From Bacteroidales bacterium (GTDB taxonomy: Bacteria > Bacteroidota > Bacteroidia > Bacteroidales > UBA932), in contig JAKSKH010000015.1 of the NCBI GenBank assembly GCA_024401855.1, positions 1 through 47,826 on the forward strand: DNA of 47,826 nucleotides. Direction: 5' to 3'. A model generated the notes under the pieces. It was not told where the DNA came from, did no database searches, and saw only the letters and a list, made by a program, of their open reading frames with translations. Below, piece by piece: positions 1-47,826 of this stretch (position 1 is its first letter; each line of letters starts with the position of its first letter). The position numbers and the translations under genes were made by a program.

Positions 1-2
1 TT

Positions 3-89
3 ACAGAAGAGAAAGTCAGCTTCGACCAGATGCCCACCGTGGTATCAGAGCTAAATCAGAAAAGAATCGCTATATTTGCAAGTCGTTAG
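3..89 (+). CDS. C-terminal tail of an unidentified gene, cut by the window edge
   Basis: A reading frame enters from the left edge and stops with TAG at 87-89, giving about 28 residues that include the segment SFDQMPTVVSELNQK. From memory this resembles the very N-terminus of small Bacteroidota helix-turn-helix/excisionase-like proteins, which often begin with a similar F-x-Q-(L/M)-P-x-(A/V)-V-S motif. If that is right, the frame is the broken front end of such a gene rather than a natural C-terminus. It could also be a chance frame. Identity is uncertain. Confidence 0.3.
   Translation, partial: TEEKVSFDQMPTVVSELNQKRIAIFASR
71..78 (+). promoter_or_regulatory. Possible Bacteroidota -7 promoter box (TATATTTG)
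   Basis: TATATTTG matches the Bacteroidota sigma factor -7 consensus TAnnTTTG exactly. It lies about 200 bases before obgE and could give that gene a long leader. No clear -33 TTTG sits 19-21 bases upstream. Confidence 0.35.
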
Positions 90-281
90 GCCATAATTTG
101 GTTTACGAAACAACAGATCTTTGAAATCGGCGGAGAAAATTCAGTGGAAAAACACTTTTTTCTATGCAATCCACTTTCAATTTGTAAGCAGGTTTGTCAA
201 TGGTTACTTATGACAGTTTTGTTACTATTTTGTTACTCCGGGCGGTTTTGAAGAACAAACAAAATTGATTTACAAAGGGTT
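90..281 (+). other. AT-rich leader of obgE with spaced GTTACT repeats
   Basis: This 192-base stretch holds no convincing gene. GTTACT occurs at 203-208, 221-226 and 232-237; the last two lie within identical TTTTGTTACT decamers at 217-226 and 228-237. No exact TAnnTTTG box is present inside it. The repeats could be a protein-binding array or the worn edge of an integrated element. Confidence 0.45.
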
Positions 282-1274
282 ATGGCCGATTCTAATTTCA
301 TAGACTACGTAAAGATTTATTGCGCTTCCGGTCACGGAGGGGCGGGTGCGATGCATCTGCACAGGGCCAAATACATACCCAAGGGAGGTCCCGACGGCGG
401 TGACGGTGGGCGCGGAGGCCATATCATCCTCAAGGCGAACTCGCAGTTCTGGACTCTCATCCATCTGAAGTACCGCAAGCACGTGAAGGCGGAGGACGGT
501 GAGAAAGGCGGGGCAGCCCTCATGCACGGAAAGAACGGTCAGGACATATTCCTCGACGTGCCTGTCGGAACCGTTGTGAAGGATGCGGAGACGGAGGAGG
601 TCCTTTTCGAGATGATGGAGGATGGAGAGGAGAGGATTCTCTGCCGCGGAGGCCGCGGAGGATGGGGGAACGACCACTTCAAGACCCCCACAATGCAGAC
701 CCCAAGATTCGCCCAGCCCGGCGAGGATGGGGAGGAGGGCGTTTTCGTTCTAGAACTCAAGCTTCTTGCGGATGTGGGTCTGGTTGGATTCCCGAATGCG
801 GGAAAGTCAACCCTGCTCAGCACGGTGTCGGCTGCAAAGCCCAAGATAGCGGATTACGCATTCACGACCCTGGAACCGAACCTGGGCATTGTGAGCTATC
901 ATGACGGAAGGTCCTTCGTGATGGCGGACATCCCTGGAATCATAGAGGGCGCCCACGAGGGAAGGGGAATAGGAATAAGGTTCCTGAGGCACATCGAACG
1001 TAATTCCGTGCTGCTGTTCATGGTCAGCTGCGAGCACGAGGACATTGCGTCCGGCTACAGGACTCTTCTGAACGAGCTCAAGCTCTACAATCCCGAACTT
1101 CTCACCAAACAGAGGGTCCTTGCGGTAACCAAATGCGACATAATCGATGTCGACATCGAGAAAGAGATAGAACCCACTCTGCCGAAAGGCATCCCTCACG
1201 TATTTATTTCATCGAGTTCGGGTGAAGGCATACCCGAATTGAAGAATCTTCTTTGGAAAGCGTTGCAGAAATGA
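282..1274 (+). CDS. obgE: GTPase ObgE/CgtA
   Basis: A ribosome-associated GTPase that acts in late 50S subunit assembly and in stress control. Residues 1-160 form the glycine-rich Obg fold, with repeated GG and GRGG turns. The G domain follows: Walker A GFPNAGKST at 169-177, switch II DIPG at 216-219, a G4 variant TKCD at 283-286 (the usual Asn replaced by Thr) and G5 around SSSSGEG at 310-316. At 330 residues it stops right after the G domain and lacks the C-terminal OCT extension of some homologues. The stop overlaps the start of the PAP2 gene (ATGA), so the two are probably cotranscribed. The family call is very secure. Confidence 0.97.
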   Translation: MADSNFIDYVKIYCASGHGGAGAMHLHRAKYIPKGGPDGGDGGRGGHIILKANSQFWTLIHLKYRKHVKAEDGEKGGAALMHGKNGQDIFLDVPVGTVVKDAETEEVLFEMMEDGEERILCRGGRGGWGNDHFKTPTMQTPRFAQPGEDGEEGVFVLELKLLADVGLVGFPNAGKSTLLSTVSAAKPKIADYAFTTLEPNLGIVSYHDGRSFVMADIPGIIEGAHEGRGIGIRFLRHIERNSVLLFMVSCEHEDIASGYRTLLNELKLYNPELLTKQRVLAVTKCDIIDVDIEKEIEPTLPKGIPHVFISSSSGEGIPELKNLLWKALQK

Positions 1275-1867
1275 CGGTACTGGAATATCTACAATATCTT
1301 GACAGGGACGTTACCCTGGCTGTCAATTCTTACGGAAGCCCGGTGACGGACCAGATATGGCAGTTCTTTTCCATGAAGGAGGTCTGGTACCCCCTTTATC
1401 TTCTCATTGCACTCGGACTTGTGTGGAGGCTCGGATGGAAGCAGGGACTCGTTTACGTTGTGGCCTGCGCTCTTACGGTGGTGGCCTGCGACCAGACAGG
1501 CAATTTTGTAAAGGATACGGTGCAGAGGCTTCGTCCTTGCTGGGATCAGCTTATGCAGGACGGAGGTTTGCGCATACTTGAAGACAAGGGTGGGCAGTTC
1601 GGCTTCTATTCAGCCCACGCTGCAAACGCCATGGGACTTGCCGTCTGTTCGTACAAGGGGTTCTGCAGGGGAGTGCGGGGCCGGCACAAACTTTACGGAA
1701 CCATTATGATTCTGTGGGCTTTGCTCGTTGGTGTCAGCCGGGTGTTCGTCGGAAAGCATTTCTGCGGAGACGTGCTCGTGGGTTTCGTCGCCGGAGTGGT
1801 CTTCGCCTGTATCTTCGCCGCCCTGGCGGATATCGCCATTTCGGTTTTCAGGCTTTCAAGGCGTTGA
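1271..1867 (+). CDS. PAP2-superfamily membrane phosphatase
   Basis: A 198-residue integral membrane phosphatase of the type-2 phosphatidic acid phosphatase family. Such enzymes dephosphorylate phosphatidate, undecaprenyl pyrophosphate or lipid A phosphates. The three family motifs are present: KX6RP at 81-89 (KDTVQRLRP), a short SAH at 114-116 in place of PSGH, and SRX5HXXXD with Ser156, Arg157, His163 and Asp167. Several hydrophobic segments flank them. I chose the ATG at 1271, which overlaps the obgE stop, over an in-frame ATG at 1253 inside obgE. The last 20 bases overlap the 3' end of the opposing lipid kinase. The exact substrate cannot be read from sequence. Confidence 0.9.
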   Translation: MTVLEYLQYLDRDVTLAVNSYGSPVTDQIWQFFSMKEVWYPLYLLIALGLVWRLGWKQGLVYVVACALTVVACDQTGNFVKDTVQRLRPCWDQLMQDGGLRILEDKGGQFGFYSAHAANAMGLAVCSYKGFCRGVRGRHKLYGTIMILWALLVGVSRVFVGKHFCGDVLVGFVAGVVFACIFAALADIAISVFRLSRR

Positions 1868-2792
1868 TGAAGCCGTCTTCCACGTAAATCGATACGGGCA
1901 GGCGTCCCTCGACTTCTCCGTCGAGTTCCAGGAAATCCGCAGCCGCCGAATTCATAGGCACGATTTCGAGGTTTCTGCATCTTGCGAACTTAACCTCCCT
2001 GGATTCTGTGAGCGTACCGTTGAAAAGCCTTGGTATCTGGCGGAACACCGTGGTGAGAGGAATCTTGGGCACAATCATCACGTCTATCATCCCGTCGTTT
2101 ATTTCCGCAAGCGGGACCTGCCTCATTCCGCTGCCGCTGTATTTTCCGTTACCTATAGCTATGGAATAGACGGGGCCGCTGTGAACTTCCTTTCCGTCCG
2201 CGATGACCTTGACTTCTATGGCATTGAGGTGCAAAGCGGTATGCCTCAGTGCATTAAGGTAGATCAGCTTGCTGCGGAAACCCCTTTCCTTGAGGAAATT
2301 CACCCTCTTGCACACGTGCGAGTCGAACCCGACACCTCCGCAATTGGCAAGGCAGTATGTCTTTCCGTCGGCGCTTTTCACGCGTACTATGTCCATCCTG
2401 GTGTACGAGTCCTTTACTATGAGGTTTACGGCCTCTTCGGAATCGTTGGGTATGCCGAAGGACTTTATCCAGTCGTTGCCGCTCCCTATCGGAACCACGC
2501 CGAGATGGAATTCTTCAGGATTTCCTGAATTCTCGTCGCACCATTTTATGATTCCGCTGAACGTCTCGTGGAGGGATCCGTCTCCGCCGACGGCTATTAT
2601 CTTCCTGTATCCTTTGTCCGCCGCCTCGTATGCAAGTGAAGTTGCGTGGCGCTTATGGTCTGTGAATTCGGTGACGTATCTTATTCCAAGCCTGTCCAGT
2701 TCCTTTTCGGCCGGAACCCATTTTGACATTGTCTTGCCGGAACCCGCCCTGGGGTTCACTATAAAATACAATTCGGTCTTGGTCTCTAGCAT
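1848..2792 (-). CDS. Diacylglycerol kinase-family lipid kinase (YegS/BmrU type)
   Basis: A soluble lipid kinase of 314 residues that phosphorylates diacylglycerol or a related lipid using ATP. Family motifs are clear: NPRAGSGK at 13-20, GGDGSLHET at 69-77 and PIGSGND at 101-107. I start at the ATG at 2792 because the homologous region begins there (LYFIVNPRAG). An upstream ATG at 2837 would run through both promoters of the divergent region. A TACATTTG box ends only four bases before the chosen start, so the message may be nearly leaderless. Its function is opposite to that of the neighbouring PAP2 phosphatase, whose gene it overlaps tail to tail by 20 bases. Confidence 0.92.
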   Translation of the reverse strand: MLETKTELYFIVNPRAGSGKTMSKWVPAEKELDRLGIRYVTEFTDHKRHATSLAYEAADKGYRKIIAVGGDGSLHETFSGIIKWCDENSGNPEEFHLGVVPIGSGNDWIKSFGIPNDSEEAVNLIVKDSYTRMDIVRVKSADGKTYCLANCGGVGFDSHVCKRVNFLKERGFRSKLIYLNALRHTALHLNAIEVKVIADGKEVHSGPVYSIAIGNGKYSGSGMRQVPLAEINDGMIDVMIVPKIPLTTVFRQIPRLFNGTLTESREVKFARCRNLEIVPMNSAAADFLELDGEVEGRLPVSIYVEDGFINALKA

Positions 2793-2796
2793 AGTG

Positions 2797-2804
2797 CAAA
2801 TGTA
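2797..2804 (-). promoter_or_regulatory. -7 box (TACATTTG) of the lipid kinase
   Basis: On the minus strand TACATTTG matches TAnnTTTG. Only CACT separates it from the ATG at 2792, which predicts a start of transcription at or next to the start codon. Confidence 0.55.
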
Positions 2805-2816
2805 GGAAATATTTTG

Positions 2817-2824
2817 TAAATTTG
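2817..2824 (+). promoter_or_regulatory. -7 box (TAAATTTG) of the parA operon
   Basis: TAAATTTG matches TAnnTTTG and lies 25 bases before the parA ATG. It is only 12 bases from the divergent box of the lipid kinase, so the two promoters probably interact. Confidence 0.55.
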
Positions 2825-2849
2825 CACCTCTTAGCATTCAGTTGAAGAT

Positions 2850-3638
2850 ATGGGTAAAATCATTGCAATTGCCAATCAGAAAGGCGGTGTGGGAAAGACC
2901 ACGACGGCAATCAATCTTGCCGCCTCCCTTGCGGTTCTCGAGAAGAACGTTCTTGTAATCGACGCCGACCCTCAGGCCAATACCACTTCCGGTCTTAACT
3001 TCTCTCCTGACGATGATCAGAAGAGGACTCTGTATGAACTGATGATAGGCAGTGTTTCCGTCGAGGATGTCCTCATACAGACGGAAATAGAGAGGCTGCA
3101 CATGATTCCGTCCCATATCAATCTTGTAGGAGCCGAGGTTGAAATGCTTGATATGCCGGAACGCGAATCAGTGCTCAAGAAGGCCCTCGCTCCGGTGAAG
3201 GACAGATATGATTACATAATCATAGACTGTTCCCCCTCCCTCGGGCTCATCACCATCAATTCACTGACTGCCGCCGATTCCGTAATAATTCCCGTACAGC
3301 CCGAGTTCTTCGCGCTGGAGGGTCTTGGAAAACTCCTTCAGACAATACGCCTTGTCCAGGGGGGAGTGAATCCGGACCTCCGCATAGAAGGTTTCGTGGT
3401 TACCATGTTCGACGGCCGCACCAAGGTTCATTCGCAGGTGCTCTCAGAACTCAGGGAACATTTCAAGGATATGGTCTTCAGGACCATCATCCAGAGGAAC
3501 ATCCGTCTGAGCGAAGCTCCTTCTCACGGAAAGCCCATTATCCTTTATGACATTATGTGCAACGGTTCCACAAATTACCTCAATCTCGCCAAGGAAGTGA
3601 TGGAACATAACAACGATACTGATGAGCAAGGAAAATAG
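2850..3638 (+). CDS. parA: Chromosome partitioning ATPase ParA (Soj)
   Basis: A deviant Walker-A ATPase of 262 residues that moves the ParB-parS complex of the replication origin along the nucleoid. The motif KGGVGKTT lies at 11-18 with the signature first lysine. Walker A' (VIDADPQANTT) and Walker B (YIIIDCSPSLG) follow. Length and the short N-terminus match chromosomal Soj-type ParA rather than plasmid type Ia ParA, which carries an extra DNA-binding domain. It is the first gene of the operon and its 3' end overlaps parB by 17 bases, consistent with coupled translation. Confidence 0.96.
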   Translation: MGKIIAIANQKGGVGKTTTAINLAASLAVLEKNVLVIDADPQANTTSGLNFSPDDDQKRTLYELMIGSVSVEDVLIQTEIERLHMIPSHINLVGAEVEMLDMPERESVLKKALAPVKDRYDYIIIDCSPSLGLITINSLTAADSVIIPVQPEFFALEGLGKLLQTIRLVQGGVNPDLRIEGFVVTMFDGRTKVHSQVLSELREHFKDMVFRTIIQRNIRLSEAPSHGKPIILYDIMCNGSTNYLNLAKEVMEHNNDTDEQGK

Positions 3639-35632: not shown

Positions 35633-38600
35633 CTAGATGATCCCGTTCAGAAGATCTATCTTGCCGTCGTCTATGATTTTCAGGATGAGTTCGCCGAACA
35701 GAGTATTCTGCCAGGCGAACCATTCTCTTGTAAAGTGGGCCGGATTGTCCACGTGGAAGGATTCGTGCATGAATCCGCATCCGGCATCCGTTGTCATGAG
35801 CTTGATTATGCAGTCCTGTATTTCCTTGTCATCCTGTGAGGTGAATGCCCTCATCATATAACTCATGGGCCAGATATAGTCGTTTCCAATGTGCGGTCCG
35901 CCTATACCTTCACCGGCCGCTCCCTTGAAATGATAGGGGTTGCTTCCGCTGAGCACGAAGCGGCGGGTGTTCTGGTAGATGGGGTCGTTAATGTCAACAT
36001 CTCCCAGATAAGCCATTCCGAGGAGCGAAGGAACATTTGCGTCATCCATCAGGAGATGGTTGCCGAATCCGTCAACCTCATAAGCGTAAACCTTTCCGAA
36101 TTCCGGAGTGTCCACCACAGCATATTCCTTCAGCGCTTTCTCAACCTCGTCCGCCAGACTGCGGCATTCTCCTGCCATTTCTGAATTGCCGTTCACCGTT
36201 TCCAGGATTTCAGCAGCCTTACGCAGACTTGTGACTGCGAAGAAGTTGGACGGAACCAGGAAATCCATGACTGTGGAGTCATCTGAAGGACGGAAAGACG
36301 ACACGATAAGCCCTACCGGCTTTACGGGGTTGCCGTATCCGTAATTGCTCTTCATGTCGTATTGAGCGTCGCAATTTCTGGTAAAGTAGTACGGCCCGCG
36401 GTTCTCTTTGCGCTGCTGCTCGCGGAATGTCTTGAGAATCTTGCCCATCGCTTCGATCCAGGTCCGGTCAAAGATTGAACCGTCTCCGGTCTTCTTCCAA
36501 TATGCATACGCCAGACGGATGGGATAGCAGTCCGAGTCTATCTCCCACTTGCGTTCGTGCAGTTCCGGTTTCATTTCCGTATTGTCATCCATCCAACCGG
36601 TACCGGTGGGACCTATGTTGAAAGCGTTTGCATAAGGGTCTATGCATATGCATTTGAGCTGCCTGCGTATTGTCCCTTCAAGCATCGCCTTTATTTCGGG
36701 GTCGTCCGCAAAGCGGAGGTATGGCCATACCTGAGCCCCGCTGTCGCGAAGCCACATGGCATGAATGTCTCCGGTATAGACGAAGGTGTCGGGGTTTCCG
36801 TTGCCGTCATCTTCGGTGAAGTGTACGGTGGTGTCCAGAGTGTTTGGGAAACAGTTACTGAACATCCACGCAAGGCGGGGGTTGGTGAGCTGCGCCTGAA
36901 CTTCCCTGATAGTGTTCTCTATGGAATCATCTGTGAAGAGCCTGTCTTCCGGAGCGGGACGCTGGCAAATGTATTCTTCCGGTTCTTCAGCGCAATACCA
37001 CAGAGCGGGTTCGCTTCCCATTACAAGGGTGAGCTCCCCTCCCGCCATTATGTCTTCGTAGCTGATATAACCTTTTGTATAGGGGCGACCGTCAAGATAT
37101 ATTCTCTGGATATATCTGTTCTCTTCGGAGTTGTCCTGAGCCACGATTCTGAAGGTCCTTCCTTCCTTTACCGCGATGTCCACGCTGTCAAAGAGGGGGG
37201 AACCGAACCAATAGCGGCCTCCGGCAGGCTCCACCTGATAGAAGCCCATAGATGAGAGGATATACCAGGCGGACATCTGTCCTACGTCCTCGTTTCCGCT
37301 CAGACCGTCTTTTGTTGCGTGGTACATCTCGTCGCAGGTGCGTCTTACCAGTTCAGCGGTTTTCCAAGGCTGGCCGAGCATCCCGTACAGATAGAGGATA
37401 TGGTGGCTCGGTTCGTTTCCGTGGGCATACTGGCCGATGAGTCCGGAGATGTCGGGAGAAGCGTTTTCTCCTTCAAGCACGGAACTTACCAGGAAAAGTG
37501 AGTCGAGCTTCTGGATGAGGGCCTCCCGTCCGGAGAAATGGCGGTCTATATTGTTGTGAACGTGATGACGGTATGACTTGAAGCATTCCGCAAGACCGTC
37601 GATATCGTGGGGAACAAGCCAGGTGTACTGCCACGCGTTGCCTTCTGTGTAGTCGTCGGCACGGTGATTTGAATGGAAGGGGCTGAAGGGCTCGTTGAAT
37701 TTTCCGTCAACCCTCACACCGCGCATGAATCCGCTTTCGGGGTCGAAATGTCGTTTGTATGATTTGCTTCTCTGCAGGAAGTACTTGTAGTCTTCTGTCC
37801 TGCCAAGTTTCCTTGCGGCCTGTGCAATAGCCCAGTCCGCTATTGCGTATTCCATTTCGTAGGCGACAGACTCGTTGAAGATGTCGCAGGGTATGTACCC
37901 GTATTTCATTCTGAGGTCCTGTCCGCGGTCAGGCCTCATTGCAGATGCCTTCATTGCCGCGAAAGCCCGTTCGATGTCGAATCCGTCGAATCCTTTGAGA
38001 ATGGCGTCGGCGACTACCGGGATTCCGGGATTGCCCACCATACAGTCTGTCTCGCAACCCATGAGATGCCATACGGGAAGTTTGCCCTGCTTGTCAAAGA
38101 TGTCCAGGAAGGTGTTGATTACGTCATTCTCCCTGTCTGCGTGTATTATGGTGTACAGCGGCATCTGTGCGCGGTAGGTATCCCAGAGTGAGAATGTGGT
38201 GTATTTGTCGGGCTGTCCGCAGTCACTGAAAAGCGAAGGCGCAATCATGCTGTGATACATTGCCGTGTAGAATATTTTCTTTGTGTCTTCGTTCTTCGTC
38301 CCGACTTTGATTTTGGAAAGTTCCTTTTCCCAGGCCTTGTCCGCCGCTCTGCGGACCGCTTCGAAATCCCATCCCGGCAGTTCCGCTTCCATGTTCGCCG
38401 CTGCGGCATCAGTGCTTTCCGGTGAAAGCGCGACTTTCACCATAACCTTTGCACCTTCCGGGAATTCGAAACGCCAGAAACCCTCCGCACATTTTTCTGA
38501 GGAAGTGAAATCCTCCGAGAACTCTGCCGCGAAGTACTGTTTCTGATTGTCTGCCCATCCTGTGGAATGACGGTGTCCGATGATGTGCCTGCTGTCGATA

Positions 38601-39151
38601 ACCGTAATGTCTCCGTCTGTCAGTTCGTCCCAACAGCCTCCGTTCATGAGGTTGAATACGAGTGATGCTGTTCCGCTCCCACCGGGGAATGTGTAGCAGT
38701 GAAAACCAACACGTGCGGTTGCGGTCATTTCCGCAAGCACTCCGGATTTCTTCAGCCGGACCTTGTAGTAACCCGGAACGCTTTCTTCCCCGCTTCTGTC
38801 TGCAACGTCCGCCAGTCCGGTCCTTGAATATTCAACGTCTTTCGCCGTTACCGGCATCACGGTTACATCGAAGAGGTCGCCGATGCCTGTTCCGCTCAGA
38901 TGTGTGTGGGAGAATCCTATTACGCTGGAATCGCTGTCATGGTACCCTGAACACCAGTCCCAGTCCGTGGGGATGCTGGTGGGCCCGAGCTGAACCATTC
39001 CGAAAGGAACGTTTGCGCCCACGAAAACATGTCCGTGGCCTCCTGTTCCGATAGATGTGTCAACGTAGGATGTCAATTTTTCCGGTTTCTTGGCGGGGGT
39101 GCAGGCGCAGATGATTGCAAGTGCGGCGAGCAGAAGGGTTTTATTGCGCAT
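35633..39151 (-). CDS. GH92-GH125 fused exo-alpha-mannosidase lipoprotein
   Basis: A 1172-residue lipoprotein (lipobox ending ICAC, Cys17) made of two mannosidase modules. Residues about 25-720 are GH92, Ca2+-dependent exo-mannosidases of varied linkage: DTSIGTGGHGHVFVGA at 31-46, the acid candidate Glu434 in EMEYA and GNEDVGQMSAW at 619-629. Residues about 738-1165 are GH125, metal-independent exo-alpha-1,6-mannosidases: DIHAMWLRDS at 795-804, IDSDCYPIRLAYAYW at 871-885 and TREWFAWQNTLFGEL at 1141-1155. Both modules look full length with their signature segments intact, and there is no frameshift between them. One protein could thus remove several mannose linkages in turn. It is transcribed divergently from the transglutaminase-like gene through a palindromic promoter region. 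Confidence 0.9.
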   Translation of the reverse strand: MRNKTLLLAALAIICACTPAKKPEKLTSYVDTSIGTGGHGHVFVGANVPFGMVQLGPTSIPTDWDWCSGYHDSDSSVIGFSHTHLSGTGIGDLFDVTVMPVTAKDVEYSRTGLADVADRSGEESVPGYYKVRLKKSGVLAEMTATARVGFHCYTFPGGSGTASLVFNLMNGGCWDELTDGDITVIDSRHIIGHRHSTGWADNQKQYFAAEFSEDFTSSEKCAEGFWRFEFPEGAKVMVKVALSPESTDAAAANMEAELPGWDFEAVRRAADKAWEKELSKIKVGTKNEDTKKIFYTAMYHSMIAPSLFSDCGQPDKYTTFSLWDTYRAQMPLYTIIHADRENDVINTFLDIFDKQGKLPVWHLMGCETDCMVGNPGIPVVADAILKGFDGFDIERAFAAMKASAMRPDRGQDLRMKYGYIPCDIFNESVAYEMEYAIADWAIAQAARKLGRTEDYKYFLQRSKSYKRHFDPESGFMRGVRVDGKFNEPFSPFHSNHRADDYTEGNAWQYTWLVPHDIDGLAECFKSYRHHVHNNIDRHFSGREALIQKLDSLFLVSSVLEGENASPDISGLIGQYAHGNEPSHHILYLYGMLGQPWKTAELVRRTCDEMYHATKDGLSGNEDVGQMSAWYILSSMGFYQVEPAGGRYWFGSPLFDSVDIAVKEGRTFRIVAQDNSEENRYIQRIYLDGRPYTKGYISYEDIMAGGELTLVMGSEPALWYCAEEPEEYICQRPAPEDRLFTDDSIENTIREVQAQLTNPRLAWMFSNCFPNTLDTTVHFTEDDGNGNPDTFVYTGDIHAMWLRDSGAQVWPYLRFADDPEIKAMLEGTIRRQLKCICIDPYANAFNIGPTGTGWMDDNTEMKPELHERKWEIDSDCYPIRLAYAYWKKTGDGSIFDRTWIEAMGKILKTFREQQRKENRGPYYFTRNCDAQYDMKSNYGYGNPVKPVGLIVSSFRPSDDSTVMDFLVPSNFFAVTSLRKAAEILETVNGNSEMAGECRSLADEVEKALKEYAVVDTPEFGKVYAYEVDGFGNHLLMDDANVPSLLGMAYLGDVDINDPIYQNTRRFVLSGSNPYHFKGAAGEGIGGPHIGNDYIWPMSYMMRAFTSQDDKEIQDCIIKLMTTDAGCGFMHESFHVDNPAHFTREWFAWQNTLFGELILKIIDDGKIDLLNGII

Positions 39152-39223: not shown

Positions 39224-41527
39224 ATGAAAAGATTTTCACTGCTGTTTGCGCTTTGCGCACTGCTTTCTCTTTCTTCCTGCGGGCCGGCGAAGTCCCCGAA
39301 GGAGAAGTATGTCGATTTCCTTTACGGATGCATGCCGCTTCCCGACAGTCTTATATATCCGCGTTCTTGGTGGGAAGCCAACGTGGACAAGACACTTGAA
39401 GTAAGGGAAAAAATGAACTGGGGTGTGCCGGAAAGGGAGTTTGTTCATTTTGTGCTTCCTCTCAGAGTCAACAACGAAGGTCTTGACGACTTCCGTACCA
39501 CTTATGCCGATTCCCTTTGCGACAGGGTGCAGGGATTGTCAATGGAACAGGCGGTCCTTGAGATAAACCACTGGTGCCACGAGCATGTCACTTATCAGCC
39601 TTCCGACGGCCGTACCTCCGCTCCCATGTCAACAATACGGTATGGATTCGGACGTTGCGGTGAGGAATCCGTTGTTACCGTGGCCGCTCTCCGCGCGGCA
39701 GGTATCCCCGCACGTCAGGTCTATACTCCCAGATGGGCACATACCGATGACAACCACGCCTGGGTTGAGGCATGGGTCGACGGTACCTGGCATTTCCTCG
39801 GGGCCTGTGAACCGGAGCCTGCATTGGATATGGGATGGTTCAATTCACCTGTTTCGCGCGCAATGCTCCTTCATACGAACGTATATGGAGATTATGACGG
39901 ACCCGAGGATGTGATTCGGAGGAATGCCGTATATTCCGAAATCAACCTCATACGCAATTATGTTCCCGCAAGACGCACTGTCGTAACAGTCAGGGATACT
40001 GAAGGAAATGCAGTCCCCGGCGCTACCGTGGAATTCAAGATATACAATTACGCCGAATTCTATTCTGTGGCTGAATATACCGCCGATGACAAGGGGCAGG
40101 CCGCTCTTGACATGGGCCTCGGAGACATGATGGTCTGGGCTTACAAAGGCGATTCGTTCGGCCTTGCCAAGGCAAGTTCCGAGTCTGCCGAGGTTGTTCT
40201 CAACCATAAGTTCGGAGAGAGCGTGAGCATGGACTTCCATATCGTCCCTCCCGTTGACAATCCTCTTCCGGCCAATGCTACAGAGGAGCAGGTTGCACAG
40301 AATGCGGAGCGTCTCAAGAAGGAGGATGCCATCCGCAACGCCATGCATCAGGGTGTTGTGAATCAGGATGTGCTCGATGCGTTCATCGATGAATTCAAGG
40401 ATGATCCCGCAAAGGCCGCGGCGGCGAATACCGTTCTTCGCAGCATCACCCCCAAGGACCGCAGGGACATCACCATCGATGTCCTCGAGGATGCTGTCTC
40501 AGATATAAGCAATCCCGACCGCTACGTTCTTTCGCCCCGCATAGAACTTGAAAAGCTCATTCCTTTCCACAGCGAAATCCGTGAGGGTCTTGCGGGCAGC
40601 GTGAAAACTTATCAGGAGGCGCTTGCGTGGGTTAAGTCCAACATCCGCATCAATGAGACCCGCAATCCCCAGAAGTTGCGCATTCCTCCCGTTGCCGTAT
40701 GGCGCGGACGTGTCTGCGACAGGAACTCGCTGGGTATCTTCTACGTTGCAGTCTGCCGCGCGATAGGCATTCCCGCCCGCATTTCCTGGCATAACGGTAA
40801 TGTTCAGGTATGCCCCGACGGGGAGTGGCTTGACGTCAATCTGGATGAGGAGGTCGCAAAGGCAAATCCCCGCGGATATCTTGCACTGGATGCATCAGAT
40901 GCCGGAATAGCTATGAAGGACGCATATTTCGGACGCTTCTCCATCGCCAAGATAGAAGACGGTCACTGCCGCCTTATGGATTACGAGTATTCTGAAGAAC
41001 AGCCTTCGGACAGGACCGCTCTCGAAGAAGGATACTATATGCTCGTTTCAGGAACACGCCTTTCTGACGGCAGCGTTCTCTGTCACGTGCAGACCTTTAA
41101 CGTCGTCGAGAATGAGACCGTGTCCCAGAAGCTTGTCCTCTGGCCTGCGGAAGGTCAGGGCGAAAAGGCCGGAGAGGGGAGTTTCATCGTCGCCCGCCTT
41201 GCAGAGAACGGCGAGCCTACTACACATGCCCTCCGTCAGTTGGAGTCAGCCGCTGAAGTCCTCAATGCCTGGGGTGGCGAAATAAGACTTTACGGTCCCA
41301 CTGAGGCAAGCCTTGATTTCTATAAGGGTTTCATTTCAGAACTCAAGAATGTCTCCTATTCAGTAGATGCTGACAATACGGTTCTTGAAAACATTCAGAA
41401 ACAGTGCAGCGGTGATGTCCGTTACCTTCCTTTCGTCGTTCTCAGGAATGCAAATGAAAAAGCCCTGTATTTTTCACAGGGCTATAACACTTCGTTGAAG
41501 GAAGGTCTTACTCAGACTGTCCGTTAA
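39224..41527 (+). CDS. Lipoprotein with tandem transglutaminase-like domains
   Basis: A 767-residue lipoprotein (lipobox SLSSC, Cys19). The first transglutaminase-like domain (about 105-220) has Cys145 in GRCGEES and His178 in DNHAWVEAW. At the third triad position, usually Asp, the text reads GACEPEP (about 193-199), so Glu196 may stand in. An Ig- or CarboxypepD-like domain follows (about 248-320). A second transglutaminase-like copy near 460-545 keeps Cys497 and the segment AVCRAIGIPAR (compare ALRAAGIPAR) but has no histidine at the active position, so it looks inactive. A beta-rich tail ends the protein. The same fold is used by eukaryotic peptide:N-glycanase and by proteases. The target is unknown. 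Its last 20 bases overlap the GH20 gene. Confidence 0.82.
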   Translation: MKRFSLLFALCALLSLSSCGPAKSPKEKYVDFLYGCMPLPDSLIYPRSWWEANVDKTLEVREKMNWGVPEREFVHFVLPLRVNNEGLDDFRTTYADSLCDRVQGLSMEQAVLEINHWCHEHVTYQPSDGRTSAPMSTIRYGFGRCGEESVVTVAALRAAGIPARQVYTPRWAHTDDNHAWVEAWVDGTWHFLGACEPEPALDMGWFNSPVSRAMLLHTNVYGDYDGPEDVIRRNAVYSEINLIRNYVPARRTVVTVRDTEGNAVPGATVEFKIYNYAEFYSVAEYTADDKGQAALDMGLGDMMVWAYKGDSFGLAKASSESAEVVLNHKFGESVSMDFHIVPPVDNPLPANATEEQVAQNAERLKKEDAIRNAMHQGVVNQDVLDAFIDEFKDDPAKAAAANTVLRSITPKDRRDITIDVLEDAVSDISNPDRYVLSPRIELEKLIPFHSEIREGLAGSVKTYQEALAWVKSNIRINETRNPQKLRIPPVAVWRGRVCDRNSLGIFYVAVCRAIGIPARISWHNGNVQVCPDGEWLDVNLDEEVAKANPRGYLALDASDAGIAMKDAYFGRFSIAKIEDGHCRLMDYEYSEEQPSDRTALEEGYYMLVSGTRLSDGSVLCHVQTFNVVENETVSQKLVLWPAEGQGEKAGEGSFIVARLAENGEPTTHALRQLESAAEVLNAWGGEIRLYGPTEASLDFYKGFISELKNVSYSVDADNTVLENIQKQCSGDVRYLPFVVLRNANEKALYFSQGYNTSLKEGLTQTVR
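41457..41483 (-). terminator. Possible terminator of the GH20 gene inside the opposing coding region
   Basis: An 8-bp perfect stem (41461-41468 with 41476-41483) around a seven-base loop. Read on the minus strand, the hairpin is followed by TTTT (41460-41457). It lies 25 bases beyond the GH20 stop, within the last codons of the transglutaminase-like gene. Confidence 0.55.
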
Positions 41528-43136
41528 ACACGTGCTTGGCGTAGTTGTAGCCAAGCTTGTCGTATATTTTACGCATCTTTTCCAATCTTACGAGGAAGGA
41601 TGCGTAATTTTTATCCTTTCCGTCAGTCCACTGGAGCTCTGAAAGCGCATCGACGCGGGGGATTGCCATGTATTCTGCATATTCCTCCGTTGCAATGTAT
41701 TCAGTCCAGAGGTTTGCCTGAACTCCAAGCACATGCTTTACCAGTTCGGGATCTCCTGCTATTTCTGCAGGAACAGGTTCGTAGTTGTATACTTTCTCTA
41801 CGGGAATGTATCCTCCTATTGCAAGGGGCTCCGTTTCCTCATCTGCCTGGTAATAGTCAAAATACAGGTTGCCGCATGAAGTCATTATTACATCATGTCC
41901 CGTGCGGGAACCGTTGATGCAGCCTTCCTCACCTCTCCATGACATCACGATTATGTCTTCCACTCCGCCACCTTCGAGGAGTTCGTCCCATCCTATGACT
42001 TTCTTGCCGTGCTTGTGCATTATGTCTGCCGCAAATGCCATCACATGGTTCTGCAGCTGGCTTTCCGCACTGTGCTCCCTGTTGCCTTTGATGCCGAGTT
42101 CCTTGATCTTAGCCTGGCAGGCAGGGCATTTCTCCCACCTTACCTTTGGGCATTCATCTCCGCCGATGTGGAAATATTCTCCCGGGAAGAGCTCTGCAAA
42201 TTCATTCAGAACGGCTTCGAGGAAGTCATATACCTTGTCGTTGCCGGCGCAGAGTACCTCGTCCATGACACCCCATTTGGTGTTCACCTCATAGGGCCCT
42301 CCTGTGCATCCGAGTTCGGGGTATGATGCCAGAGCCGCCATCATGTGTCCGGGAAGGTCCACTTCGGGTATTATCTCTATATGCCTTTCAGCAGCGTAGG
42401 CCACGATATCCTTTATCTCTTCCTGAGTGTAGAATCCTCCGTAGCGCACCCCGTCGTTTGAATCCCAGTCCTTGTCCACCATGGTGCCGTTCCTGTAGGC
42501 TCCGATTTCCGTAAGTTTGGGGTATGCTTTAATCTCCACCCTCCATCCCTGGTCCTCCGTCAGGTGCCAGTGGAATTTGTTTATATTGTGCAAAGCCATC
42601 AGGTCGATGTATTTCTTTACGAAGGAAGCGGGGAAGAAATGCCTGCAGACATCGAGGTGGAGACCTCTGTACGCGAAGCGGGGAGAGTCTTTGATCACTG
42701 CCGGTTTCATTTCAACTCTGACAGGCTCATCCGTCACGGGCAGCGCTTTCCGGAGGGTCTGTACGCCGTAGAATGTTCCTTTGACGTCATTTCCCTTGAT
42801 TGTTACGGATTCTTTGCGTATGTCGATCTCGTAACCTTCTGCAGGTCCTTCGTTGCTTGTCATTACAAGAATGTAATTCTTTGAAGGGGCCATTGCCGAC
42901 TTCTTTACGTCGAGGCCTGTCATTTCCATTATGTATTCCTTGAGGAATTCCGCGTCAGGGGCGCTCTGCTCATCGGATACAATTACGGTAGAGGGTTTCA
43001 GGATGAATGAATCACCGTCGTTCAGGGTGATGCTTTCCGGAAGTGGCACGACGTTGTAGTCCGCCTGTTCCGTTGTTTTTGGTCCGCAAGCGACAACGGA
43101 TGCCACCGCGAGAATTGTCAACAAGTGTTTCTGCAT
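41508..43136 (-). CDS. GH20 beta-N-acetylhexosaminidase lipoprotein
   Basis: A 542-residue exo-hexosaminidase that removes terminal beta-GlcNAc or GalNAc by substrate-assisted catalysis. The lipobox ends VVAC (Cys17). The GH20b alpha/beta domain spans about 28-150 and the catalytic barrel about 153-500. The catalytic pair Asp327-Glu328 lies in HIGGDECPK, and HWHLTEDQGWR is at 189-199. All expected parts are present. It is divergent from susC with about 209 bases between and overlaps the transglutaminase-like gene tail to tail by 20 bases. Removal of GlcNAc antennae would expose mannose for the GH92-GH125 enzyme. Confidence 0.95.
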   Translation of the reverse strand: MQKHLLTILAVASVVACGPKTTEQADYNVVPLPESITLNDGDSFILKPSTVIVSDEQSAPDAEFLKEYIMEMTGLDVKKSAMAPSKNYILVMTSNEGPAEGYEIDIRKESVTIKGNDVKGTFYGVQTLRKALPVTDEPVRVEMKPAVIKDSPRFAYRGLHLDVCRHFFPASFVKKYIDLMALHNINKFHWHLTEDQGWRVEIKAYPKLTEIGAYRNGTMVDKDWDSNDGVRYGGFYTQEEIKDIVAYAAERHIEIIPEVDLPGHMMAALASYPELGCTGGPYEVNTKWGVMDEVLCAGNDKVYDFLEAVLNEFAELFPGEYFHIGGDECPKVRWEKCPACQAKIKELGIKGNREHSAESQLQNHVMAFAADIMHKHGKKVIGWDELLEGGGVEDIIVMSWRGEEGCINGSRTGHDVIMTSCGNLYFDYYQADEETEPLAIGGYIPVEKVYNYEPVPAEIAGDPELVKHVLGVQANLWTEYIATEEYAEYMAIPRVDALSELQWTDGKDKNYASFLVRLEKMRKIYDKLGYNYAKHVFNGQSE

Positions 43137-43345: not shown

Positions 43346-46300
43346 ATGAAGAATGCTAAAATGATTGGTCTTCGCTCCATCTTTGTAGCGGCCGCCATGT
43401 TGCTTGCAACATCGGTATTCGCTCAGAACCTTACGGTCAAGGGTGTTGTGAAAGACTCAGAAGGAGCTCCTCTTCCGGGAGCAACTGTCTATGTGCCTGG
43501 TACATCCAACGGTGTTGTAACCGATGCATCAGGTAACTTCTCAATCCAGGTTCCCGCAAACACGGATCTGGAGGTTTCTTTCCTCGGTTTTGCCCCTCAG
43601 ACAATCAAGATCGGCACAACCGCTCCTTTCCAGGAAATCGTTCTCTCAGATTCTGAGACTCTTAACGAAGTAGTCGTTACGGCTCTCGGAGTTGCCCGCG
43701 AGAAGAAGACCCTGGGATATGCCATCCAGGATGTCAAGGGTGACGCCATCCTTGAGTCACACGAAACCAACATCGCAAACGCCCTTACAGGTAAGATTGC
43801 CGGTGTGAGTGTGATCCGTTCATCCAACGGTCCCGGTGCATCTTCCAAGATCACCCTTCGTGGTAACAACTCCCTCACCGGACTCAACCAGCCCCTCATC
43901 GTTGTCGACGGTATTCCTATGGACAACTTCGTGGGTGCAACCAACAACGACTTCTGGAACCCTTCAGCAGATATGGGTAACGGACTTCAGGATATCAACC
44001 CTGAGGACGTAGAATCCATGACTGTCCTCAAGGGACCCTCCGCTGCCGCGCTTTACGGTTCACGTGCCGGTAACGGTGTCATCCTCATCACTACAAAGAA
44101 AGGTCACCAGACTCCCGGTCTTGGTATAACCATCACCGGAACTGTTGCCGCCACCACAGAGTTCACACGTCCCAAGATGCAGAACGAGTACGGTCAGGGT
44201 ACACTCGGAGAGTATGACAATACTTCATACCTCAGCTGGGGTCCCAAGATCACCGGTCAGTCAGTCGAGAAGTGGGATGGCTCAATGGGCAAGCTTCAGG
44301 CTTATGACAACGTGAACGGATTCTTCGGAACCGGTGTAACCGACACTGAGAACGTTACTTTCTCTCAGCAGTACGGCAAGACCGGCATCTATGCTTCATG
44401 GACCCGCATGAACGATGTCAGCCAGGTTCCCGGCGCTACTCTCAAGCGTAACAACCTCATGCTCCGCGGTACTTCCACATTCGGAAAGAACGACAAGTGG
44501 CATTTCGACGCAAAGGTTCAGTACATCAAGACCCAGGCCAACAACCGTCCTATCTCAGGATCCAACGTCAACGCCAACTACATGCTCAAGATGTACACCA
44601 CTCCCGTTTCAGTTGACATCCGTGATTTCAAGGATGCAGTTGATGCCAATGGTGATATGTTCTACTTCGGTCCCAAGGACAAGACCGGTTCCAACCCTTG
44701 GTGGTATGCAAAGTACAGCACCAACCAGGATGTCCGTAACCGTTTCCTCATGAACGCTTCCTTGAAGTATGACTTCACAGAGTGGTTGGATCTCGAACTC
44801 AAGGCAGGTACCGATATGTACTTCACCGAGACCGAGAACAAGTACTATGCAGGTAACAAAATTTCAGGAAGCTATACAGGATCTTACGGAATGGGCGAAA
44901 GCCGTTTCCACGAGAACAACCTCTCATTCCTCCTCAAGGCACACAAGGACAATCTCTGGGGTGACTTCGGCGGAATGGTTCAGATCGGTGGTAACCTTAT
45001 GGACCGCGAGAGCCGCGGCATGTCCGCTTCTCAGGGCACTCTCCTCGTTCCCAACGTATTCGACCTCAACAACGCAAAGAGCGACAAGCCCGGCGTATCA
45101 GAGAGCTACAGCCATCGCAAGATGAATTCTCTCTATGGTCAGATCACTCTCAACTATGGTGGTTGGATCTTCCTCGATGCAACTCTCCGCAACGACTGGA
45201 CCTCTACCCTGAGCCCCAAGAACCGTTCATATCTCTACCCTTCAGTTTCCCTCTCATGGGTAATCAGCGATATGGTCAACAAGTATGGTGCAATGCCCGA
45301 GTGGTTCAGCTATGCCAAGGTCCGCGCTTCATTCGCAGAAGTAGGTAACGATATGGATCCCTATCAGCTGTACAACGTTTACACGATGGGTACAGATCCT
45401 AACGGCAAGCCGACCCTCAACTCCAACAGCACTCTTTACAACGAAGATGTAAAGAACGAGCTCATCAAGAACTGGGAAGTCGGTGCAGATATCCGCTTCT
45501 TCGACAACAGACTCGGATTCGACCTTGCATGGTACAAGATGAACGCTACAAACCAGCTCATCAACCTTCCTATCTCTTCAGTTGCTTATTCCAACAAGAA
45601 GATCAACGCAGGTAACATCCAGAACCAGGGTTTTGAGGCTGTCATCAATGCAGTTCCCGTCAAGAGGACGAACTTCCAGTGGAACACCAACTTCAACTTC
45701 TCTACCAACACCAACAAGATTCTCGAGCTTGCTGACGGAGTTTCAGAGTACAGCCTCGGCGGTTACGACAAACTCTCAATCGTTGCAAAGGTCGGTGGTG
45801 AGTATGGTGATATCTACGGTACCAGGTACACACGTGTAGAGGACAAGACCAGCCCTTACTATGGAAAGCTTGTTCTCAACGGTGACGGTCTTCCTACATC
45901 AGACGGTAACAAGTACTATCTCGGAAACCAGAACTCAAAGTGCAACCTCGGTTGGAACAACAACTTCACATGGAAGGACCTCTCCCTCAGCTTCCAGATT
46001 GATGCCCGTATCGGTGGAAAGATCTTCTCCGGTACCCTTATGGCCATGGAGGCTGCAGGTACAGCTGCCTGGACAACTGAAAACCGTGCAGAACAGAGCC
46101 TTCTTGTCGACGGTGTCGTAAAGAACGGTGACGGTACATATTCAGTCAACACCGTAAAGACAGACGCTCAGAAATACTGGCGTCAGATCAGCGGTGAGGC
46201 CGGTTCAAACCTCGGTATCACTGAGGAGAACCTCTACGATGCAACCAACGTACGTCTGCGTAACATCTCTCTTTCTTACGGAATCCCCAAGAGAATTCTC

Positions 46301-46489
46301 AACAGAGGAAATGTATTCCAGTCTGTAAGATTCGGTTTCTCCTGCACCAACGTAGCTATGATTTACAGTGCAATGAGAGGACTTGATCCCGAGTCTATCT
46401 TTGCTACCTCTACCAACGCAACAGGTTTCGAGTACGGTGCTGCTCCTACCTCACGTTGCTATGTATTCAATGTTTCACTCGGATTCTAA
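43346..46489 (+). CDS. SusC/RagA-type TonB-dependent outer-membrane transporter
   Basis: A 1047-residue TonB-dependent importer of the SusC family, which brings in oligosaccharides or glycopeptides captured by SusD. A signal peptide ends at SVFAQ (about 27). A CarboxypepD-regulatory-like domain (28-110) has VKGVVKDSEGAPLPGATV. The plug (about 112-240) begins with the typical LNEVVVTALGVAREKKTLGYA-like segment. A 22-strand barrel follows and ends in a terminal phenylalanine (VSLGF). There is no N-terminal STN/FecA signalling domain, so no anti-sigma control is indicated through this protein. Codon choice is strongly biased (AAC, GGT, CGT, AAG), as expected for a highly expressed gene. susD follows after 12 bases. 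Confidence 0.95.
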   Translation: MKNAKMIGLRSIFVAAAMLLATSVFAQNLTVKGVVKDSEGAPLPGATVYVPGTSNGVVTDASGNFSIQVPANTDLEVSFLGFAPQTIKIGTTAPFQEIVLSDSETLNEVVVTALGVAREKKTLGYAIQDVKGDAILESHETNIANALTGKIAGVSVIRSSNGPGASSKITLRGNNSLTGLNQPLIVVDGIPMDNFVGATNNDFWNPSADMGNGLQDINPEDVESMTVLKGPSAAALYGSRAGNGVILITTKKGHQTPGLGITITGTVAATTEFTRPKMQNEYGQGTLGEYDNTSYLSWGPKITGQSVEKWDGSMGKLQAYDNVNGFFGTGVTDTENVTFSQQYGKTGIYASWTRMNDVSQVPGATLKRNNLMLRGTSTFGKNDKWHFDAKVQYIKTQANNRPISGSNVNANYMLKMYTTPVSVDIRDFKDAVDANGDMFYFGPKDKTGSNPWWYAKYSTNQDVRNRFLMNASLKYDFTEWLDLELKAGTDMYFTETENKYYAGNKISGSYTGSYGMGESRFHENNLSFLLKAHKDNLWGDFGGMVQIGGNLMDRESRGMSASQGTLLVPNVFDLNNAKSDKPGVSESYSHRKMNSLYGQITLNYGGWIFLDATLRNDWTSTLSPKNRSYLYPSVSLSWVISDMVNKYGAMPEWFSYAKVRASFAEVGNDMDPYQLYNVYTMGTDPNGKPTLNSNSTLYNEDVKNELIKNWEVGADIRFFDNRLGFDLAWYKMNATNQLINLPISSVAYSNKKINAGNIQNQGFEAVINAVPVKRTNFQWNTNFNFSTNTNKILELADGVSEYSLGGYDKLSIVAKVGGEYGDIYGTRYTRVEDKTSPYYGKLVLNGDGLPTSDGNKYYLGNQNSKCNLGWNNNFTWKDLSLSFQIDARIGGKIFSGTLMAMEAAGTAAWTTENRAEQSLLVDGVVKNGDGTYSVNTVKTDAQKYWRQISGEAGSNLGITEENLYDATNVRLRNISLSYGIPKRILNRGNVFQSVRFGFSCTNVAMIYSAMRGLDPESIFATSTNATGFEYGAAPTSRCYVFNVSLGF

Positions 46490-46501
46490 AATTGCGTGAA
46501 T

Positions 46502-47826
46502 ATGAAAACAAATAAAATTCTTGCTTTCGTTCTTGGAGCTCTCGTTGCAGTTGCCTGCTCAGACTTTGAGGAAATGAATCACAATCCGAAAGCTGTCAAT
46601 GCTGCCGATGCAAAGCCTTACTGGGCACTCAACAAGTCCATCATTGCTGACCAGCAGAATCCTAATGACGCTGAGCGTGTATTCGTGCTCTACTGGGCCG
46701 ATATCGCACGTCAGGATGGTGAGAGCGGTTCAGGCGGACGCTGTGTCGGCCGTTCCAACGATGAGTGGGCAGGATGCCTTTACAACCTGACCAAGAACTG
46801 CGTTACTTCATCAACCAACGCCATCAACCTTGTTGATGAGCAGCTTCCTTCCCTTTCCGGACACGAGGCTGAATTCTTCCCCAATGTAAAAGCGGCAGCC
46901 CGTATCTGGAGAGTATATCTCATGACCGAGTTCGTTGACTCATTCGGTTCATTTACAACTGACTTTGCTGCTACAACCCCTGAATATCAGAGCGTTGAAG
47001 AGTGCTACAACTTCATGTTCAAGGAACTTGCAGAGGCTGTTGCCGCCATTGATGTAAATGTCAACCCCACATCAGACACTGAAAAGAACGGAGACCCCGC
47101 TTATCAGTTTGACCCTGTAAAGTGGAAAAACTTCGGTATTTCAATGTGGATGCGTATTGCAATGCGTCTTTCAGAGGTTAAGCCTGAAACTGCAAAGGCC
47201 GAGTTCGCAAAGGCTGCCGCTGCAGGTACAGGTATCATCACTACCGACGGTACTTTCCGTGTTGCTGAGAGCACAGGTTGGAATGACCTTTCAGGCGTAA
47301 TGAGCCGTACATGGGACTGGCAGGAGCTTTCAGCTACATTCGCAAACCTCACAACCAACTTCGGTGGAACGAAGATTGAGGATGTTCTTAAGGATGTAGA
47401 CGGGCGTCTCTATTCAAGTCCCGACGCTGCTCGTTACAAGGATTACATCAAGGACGCCCACGAGTATCTCGGTGTTCACATTGCCGGCACTGCAGGCAAA
47501 CTCTATGAGGAATACACCGACAACCCTACCAAGGGATACTTCTTCGATGGACTTCCCACATACGTCGATCCCCGCGCGCTCGCATATTTCAACCTTCCTG
47601 GTGACTATGACAACCGTAAGGAGACAGGTTACTGCACATTCATGAGGCATGACATCCCCGTAATGTCAGTGCTTTCAAAGGATGATGACATCAAGATTGA
47701 TGCAACCTATGCATTCAACGGACTCCAGTGCGGCTTCGGCAATGACGATCATCTTGAGAAGACTCCTTTCATCAACAATGATTACGGTACCACATATCCC
47801 GCACTTCAGGAAAGGTATCGTAACGG
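46502..47826 (+). CDS. SusD/RagB-type surface glycan-binding lipoprotein, cut by the window end
   Basis: The SusD partner of the preceding transporter: the lid that binds substrate over the SusC barrel. The frame is open for 441 codons from the ATG at 46502 to the right edge with no stop. The lipobox VAVAC gives Cys19. The N-terminal part has FEEMNHNPKAV, the usual start of mature SusD-like proteins of the SusD/RagB-like 'SusD_2' kind, and WKNFGISMWMRIAMRLSEV matches a TPR helix. The C-terminus is missing from the window. Codon bias matches susC. Its ligand is inferred from the neighbouring mannosidases and hexosaminidase. Confidence 0.93.
   Translation, partial: MKTNKILAFVLGALVAVACSDFEEMNHNPKAVNAADAKPYWALNKSIIADQQNPNDAERVFVLYWADIARQDGESGSGGRCVGRSNDEWAGCLYNLTKNCVTSSTNAINLVDEQLPSLSGHEAEFFPNVKAAARIWRVYLMTEFVDSFGSFTTDFAATTPEYQSVEECYNFMFKELAEAVAAIDVNVNPTSDTEKNGDPAYQFDPVKWKNFGISMWMRIAMRLSEVKPETAKAEFAKAAAAGTGIITTDGTFRVAESTGWNDLSGVMSRTWDWQELSATFANLTTNFGGTKIEDVLKDVDGRLYSSPDAARYKDYIKDAHEYLGVHIAGTAGKLYEEYTDNPTKGYFFDGLPTYVDPRALAYFNLPGDYDNRKETGYCTFMRHDIPVMSVLSKDDDIKIDATYAFNGLQCGFGNDDHLEKTPFINNDYGTTYPALQERYRN

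Follow-up and report, generated by a model that had tools for sequence, protein, structure and literature searches.

Why would two mannosidase families that are usually encoded by separate genes share a single open frame, and what might their union bring to a bacterium of the order Bacteroidales? The question is raised by contig JAKSKH010000015.1 of assembly GCA_024401855.1 (the whole stretch of 47,826 nucleotides analysed here, referred to as the window), in which a GH92-GH125 fusion gene occupies positions 35633..39151 of the (-) strand as a single ATG-started open reading frame (ORF) of 1172 residues, with zero internal stops when the whole frame is read. Profile searches place along it, all on the (-) strand, the GH92 N-terminal domain (residues 29-243, 38423..39067; PF17678, 217 bits), the GH92 catalytic domain (residues 250-713, 37013..38404; PF07971, 549 bits) and the GH125 domain (residues 757-1157, 35681..36883; PF06824, 552 bits). 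These Pfam matches run over the full or near-full profile lengths (positions 1-414 of 414 for PF06824) and lie far above the cut-offs, and the GH92 module also matches TIGR01180 of NCBIfam (574 bits, against a cut-off of 249.55). The module limits of 25-720 and 738-1165 given by an initial annotation agree with those of Pfam to within about 20 residues. At the N-terminus, a signal peptide with a lipobox (residues 1-17, Cys17; 39101..39151, (-) strand) was read from the sequence by eye and with a simple pattern rather than with a signal-peptide program; a lipobox-like pattern is present in 30 of the 31 distinct fused ORFs that we collected from many assemblies, the window's included, the remaining one being truncated at a contig end. 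An acidic run behind the lipobox Cys is an export mark of surface lipoproteins; such a run is absent after Cys17. The profile search and the intact frame bear out the two joined modules that the initial annotation had seen, and the protein is confirmed, as far as sequence can tell, as an intact lipoprotein carrying a full GH92 and a full GH125 enzyme. The joining of GH92 to a second catalytic module gives two known families a new domain architecture; we found no description of a GH92-GH125 fusion in the parts of the open-licence PMC literature that the search reached, which did not cover CAZy.

Both modules retain their catalytic residues on alignment, in the window protein and in the other fused ORFs. 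The GH92 module is identical to BT3130 (6f8z), a GH92 enzyme that is likely alpha-1,3-specific and, unlike the fusion, consists of a single module, at 291 of 662 aligned residues (44%). The acid Glu535 and base Asp637 of BT3130 (PMC5930347; statements from the literature rest, here and below, on portions of the cited papers) align with Glu503 (37643-37645, (-) strand) and Asp622 (37286-37288, (-) strand), both conserved in 31/31 fused ORFs. In the GH125 module, alignment to 2nvp points to Asp957 (36281-36283, (-) strand) and Glu1130 (35762-35764, (-) strand), which correspond to Asp220 and Glu393, the catalytic residues of CpGH125 (PMC9425025); they are kept in 28/28 and 27/27 of the fused ORFs with a letter in the column, the others being cut or broken earlier. 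GH125 enzymes are described as acting on alpha-1,6 linkages only (PMC10154615). For GH92, a family of calcium-dependent alpha-mannosidases, the initial annotation had listed alpha-1,2, alpha-1,3 or alpha-1,4 cleavage, and this can now be narrowed. The His-Glu pair of alpha-1,2-specific GH92 enzymes (His584-Glu585 of the +1 subsite, BT3990 type) is absent from the window protein; Trp67, Gly92, Trp172 and Trp198 of BT3130 are retained, its His581 being replaced by Pro566; and the best match of the module in the PDB is 7zgm, an alpha-1,3-mannosidase acting on plant N-glycans (PMC9522356). The clade of BT3130 and BT3965 is described as alpha-1,3 or mixed, BT3965 excepted (PMC5930347). With the pair missing, and with BT3130 and 7zgm as its nearest relatives, the module more likely cleaves alpha-1,3 linkages. 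This stays a likelihood, since the portions of PMC9522356 concerned report no +1 residues common to 7zgm and BT3130 and no residue motif common to the known alpha-1,3 GH92 structures.

A fusion seen in an assembly of 67 contigs (2.03 Mb, 85% complete) might be an artefact of assembly or gene calling, and two of the 31 fused ORFs are indeed interrupted in the assemblies they come from, L091 containing a stop and L102 frame breaks. We nevertheless reject this explanation, which we regard as extremely improbable, because 31 distinct fused ORFs were recovered from many independent assemblies, among them that of Muribaculum sp. An289, whose record carries no mark of a metagenome-assembled genome and which we take to be an isolate. 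How common the fusion is had been left open by the initial annotation, and the genomes searched now give an answer. In the genus draw (151 genomes), GH125 occurs in 80 genomes and 20 fused matches occur in 19 of them, with frames of 1045-1235 residues, all 20 checked on the sequence. In the family draw (199 genomes), 48 genomes from 11 of 25 genera bear GH125, and the fusion is found in eight genomes of three genera (G000, G609 and G652; G543 and G565; G556, G573 and G590). In the wider draws, which overlap, GH125 is borne by 77/393 genomes of the order, 65/395 of the phylum and 39/395 of the class, and none of these genomes but the window's has a GH125 frame of more than 542 residues; the claim that the two families are usually encoded apart is thus sustained. 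Two further long GH125 frames (G085 and G148, 925 and 822 residues) hold no GH92 match and are not fusions. Among the best 80 of 173 relative-coding stretches in GTDB contigs, 14 (L090-L103) carry both families in one frame, all under Bacteroidales-type titles; their sources include bins from horse faeces and roe-deer rumen as well as Candidatus Cryptobacteroides intestinipullorum, two Candidatus Merdivivens, Candidatus Minthomonas equi and Muribaculum sp. An289. The An289 copy is letter-identical to that of G556, the Merdivivens copies to those of G590 and G573, and the Minthomonas copy to that of G565, so these organisms lie in the window's family, presumably UBA932 of GTDB, with Cryptobacteroides as the presumable genus of the genus draw. 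In the genomes searched, the fusion is confined to three genera of one family.

The junction itself is still readable at the level of a single codon. The GH92 module ends in Trp-Tyr, directly followed by Cys720 (codon TGC, 36992..36994, (-) strand), the putative site of the former GH92 stop; a short linker (residues 720 to about 739; 36935..36994, (-) strand) then leads into the RPxPxxRLF stretch at the start of GH125, which begins soon after Trp-Tyr in the fusions and lies just behind the signal peptide in stand-alone GH125 proteins. Trp-Tyr is kept in 31/31 fused ORFs, and it is followed by a Cys codon (TGC or TGT) in 28 of them, by GCC in two and by AAC in one; the distance from Trp-Tyr to the GH125 match is 24-27 residues in 27 ORFs and 41-46 in the other four. 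A set of 62 unfused GH92 proteins close to that of the window (more than 700 bits, without deduplication) contains 13 with a terminal Trp-Tyr, and the stop behind it is TGA in ten and TAA in three; in a subset of 11 picked for this ending, TGA occurs nine times and TAA twice. For background, the 145 genes of 25 loci use TAA 59, TGA 54 and TAG 32 times, and Cys makes up 1.7% of residues. Since the sequences compared are related, the Cys codon at the place of the stop is to be read as a fossil trace and not as a statistic. Given the stop behind Trp-Tyr in some unfused sisters and a Cys codon at exactly this point in the fusions, the GH92 frame was probably extended by stop loss into a GH125 gene that had lost its signal peptide; the stop-to-Cys change would have needed one base if the original stop was TGA.

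The surroundings of the fused genes suggest N-glycans as the substrate, given neighbours that include BT3990-type GH92, GH130, a fucosidase, GH20 and SusC/D. With GH92 neighbours assigned to types A, B and C by best BLAST score to chosen reference proteins, and inter-gene distances measured between stop-to-stop frames, many fused genes stand in a tight run of a type A GH92, the fused type B and a type C GH92. An upstream GH92 is found in 17 of the 29 fused loci with room for one (16 of them type A, one of these 2 kb off), and a downstream type C, or BT3990-type, GH92 in 19 of the 25 with room on that side, the window locus not being counted. The type C enzyme of L101 resembles BT3990 (1095 bits) and has the His-Glu pair; for type A the nearest reference is BT3130 (369 bits). 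Of 23 fusion genomes, 19 have GH130 above cut-off, and a comparison of positions puts it next to the fused gene, or next to the adjacent type A gene, in 13. Individual loci add MFS, GH130 and GH97 (L097), GH97 (L205), GH20 (L093), or a fucosidase, CBM9, GH130 and SusC/D (L092). In the window, the fused gene is flanked by an M13 peptidase and a transglutaminase-like protein, beyond which lie a gene of the GH20 beta-hexosaminidase family (41508..43136, (-) strand), a SusC-like TonB-dependent transporter (43346..46489, (+) strand) and a SusD-like protein truncated at the window end (46490..47824, (+) strand); the first two were assigned with Pfam and may be linked to the fusion. Over 648 residues the SusC protein shares 77% identity with the SusC encoded upstream of the L092 fused gene, and the SusD protein is 61% identical to its L092 counterpart; of the further 39 loci in the comparison, few have the window's neighbours. 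Elsewhere in the same genome, contig C2 clusters a fucosidase, CBM9, GH20 and GH130 with a type C GH92 that is 55% identical to that of An289, and, with this cluster and the window locus in one genome, the gene set seems to be carried in two places. The genome has a single GH125 match, the fused one, as against eight GH92 matches; GH38 is above cut-off twice in it and in 6 of the 23 fusion genomes.

On balance, we consider it somewhat probable that the protein takes part in N-glycan breakdown as a bifunctional exo-alpha-mannosidase with a lipid anchor. A GH125 gene would have come to sit behind one of several GH92 genes in an operon; the stop codon behind Trp-Tyr would have turned into a Cys codon, with loss of the GH125 signal peptide, and GH125 would thereby have been placed under the lipid anchor of GH92. 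The GH92 module would then take off alpha-1,3-mannose and expose alpha-1,6-mannose for GH125, whose action would leave Man-beta-1,4-GlcNAc, the subject of the BT1033 phosphorylase paper (PMC10619541), for a GH130 phosphorylase. The benefit may lie in having two successive steps near each other and in equal dosage. A stronger version, in which the active sites share one space and alpha-1,3- and then alpha-1,6-mannose are removed from a bound N-glycan before its release, strikes us as doubtful. The initial annotation had gone further, proposing a processive stripping of branched high-mannose glycans without released intermediates; this is unsupported, both families being exo-enzymes that release single mannoses, and N-glycan breakdown by an alpha-1,3/alpha-1,6 pair is a better fit than the stripping of any high-mannose glycan.

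Several results speak against this reading of a bifunctional N-glycan enzyme arisen by stop loss. Of the unfused near GH92 relatives, 49 of 62 end otherwise than in Trp-Tyr; and TGA is one base from a Cys codon, TAA is not. No GH92 or GH130 lies beside the fused gene within the window, and a GH130 match is absent in 4 of the 23 fusion genomes, including G556 (An289, 99% complete). The linkage of BT3130, which acts on yeast mannan, is called uncertain by its own authors (PMC5930347). The trees, from which GH125 stretches shorter than 380 residues and GH92 stretches shorter than 560 were dropped (type A GH92 neighbours being thereby excluded), do not keep fused and unfused genes apart either. 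In a quick GH125 tree of 130 rows, 26 of them fused, the fused rows form a group of 30 with four unfused ones (Shimodaira-Hasegawa-like approximate likelihood ratio test, 81), and a strict single clade of the 26 fused domains, some of them on long branches, is rejected (approximately unbiased test, p-AU 0.00017). The stand-alone genes among the fused domains are those of L014, L176, L081 and L088, and no GH92 lies in the 13.6 kb of either L081 or L088. In the GH92 trees (135 rows, and a careful tree of 45 chosen rows), 29 fused and five unfused proteins make up a single clade (support 100/99), the five being nested among the fused at forks supported 89/84 and 93/87; none of 200 bootstrap trees (0%) separates these five from the fused proteins. 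These five (L104, L105, L106, L107 and L113), type B GH92s without GH125 and with a WY-TGA end, are candidates for re-separated genes, and their genomes hold a separate GH125 in three cases, with none found in two. One fusion with separations afterwards is the simplest reading; several independent fusions are also conceivable.

Such nesting, as if the link had been lost harmlessly, together with the coexistence of fused and unfused forms within one genus, favours another account, in which the modules work independently and the fusion was a near-neutral stop loss whose only gain is joint expression and the membrane anchoring of GH125. Against this account stand the short linker and the retention of all catalytic residues across deeply branched copies in three genera, and we hold it to be possible but rather unlikely. 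Less likely still, and in our judgement improbable, is a fungal alpha-mannan enzyme, whose GH92 would strip the side chains and whose GH125 would consume the exposed alpha-1,6 backbone, starting at its end. In its favour, the chains most similar to the GH125 module are from Bacteroides, for example BT3781 (2p0v), relatives of which serve in mannan breakdown (PMC9213526), and GH76 is above cut-off in 9 of the 23 fusion genomes, a further point against N-glycans. The surroundings, with GH130, fucosidase, GH20 and BT3990-type GH92, argue the other way. Yeast mannan is disfavoured as the target of the window's copy, because the sole GH76 match in its genome, 85% complete as it is, falls below the cut-off.

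Other unusual frames were met with along the way. The gene divergent from the fused one in the window (39224-41527, (+) strand) encodes a lipoprotein-like product with two transglutaminase-core stretches and no NCBIfam match. Upstream of the MFS-GH130-GH92 run containing the fused gene of L097, positions 1-3393 hold GH97 and GH65 in one open frame (1131 residues, cut at the contig end). In L192 (2-2500; G693, of the same family), GH125 follows a peptidase M3 domain in one frame of 833 residues, also cut at a contig end, which would be a second GH125 fusion with a different partner. A 1274-residue ORF of L228 (2255-6079; G041) combines FAD-dependent oxidoreductase, GH130-like and GDSL lipase domains, and a GH130-like match in G652 lies in a similarly long frame (1245 residues).

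Set beside known systems, the fused gene and its neighbours recall the high-mannose N-glycan locus BT3990/BT3991/BT3994 of B. thetaiotaomicron, whose GH92 enzymes act sequentially in the periplasm (PMC7021837, PMC10154615), through the downstream BT3990-type neighbour; unlike in that locus, GH125 is here fused on and could take the last alpha-1,6-mannose. The GH125 module has its best PDB matches in the Bacteroides enzymes BT3781, 3p2c and 3on6 (700-713 bits over about 440 residues), which, in contrast to it, stand alone; among the stand-alone GH125 proteins compared, at most 24 of 115 (loose pattern, not deduplicated) carry a lipobox-like N-terminus. The five-domain NnGH92 is likewise a multi-domain GH92, and its mannan conversion is raised by adding GH76 and GH125 enzymes, but its extra domains are non-catalytic and GH125 is supplied separately (PMC10167667). 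The fusion enzyme could be a handy single-protein tool for N-glycan trimming. The fusion codon can still be read and the spread is narrow; fused and unfused relatives occur in one family, so that the worth of joining successive glycosidases becomes testable on natural pairs; if ordered removal on a bound glycan were true, the family, with its unfused and seemingly re-separated members, would offer a natural before-and-after series on whether enzyme fusion pays.

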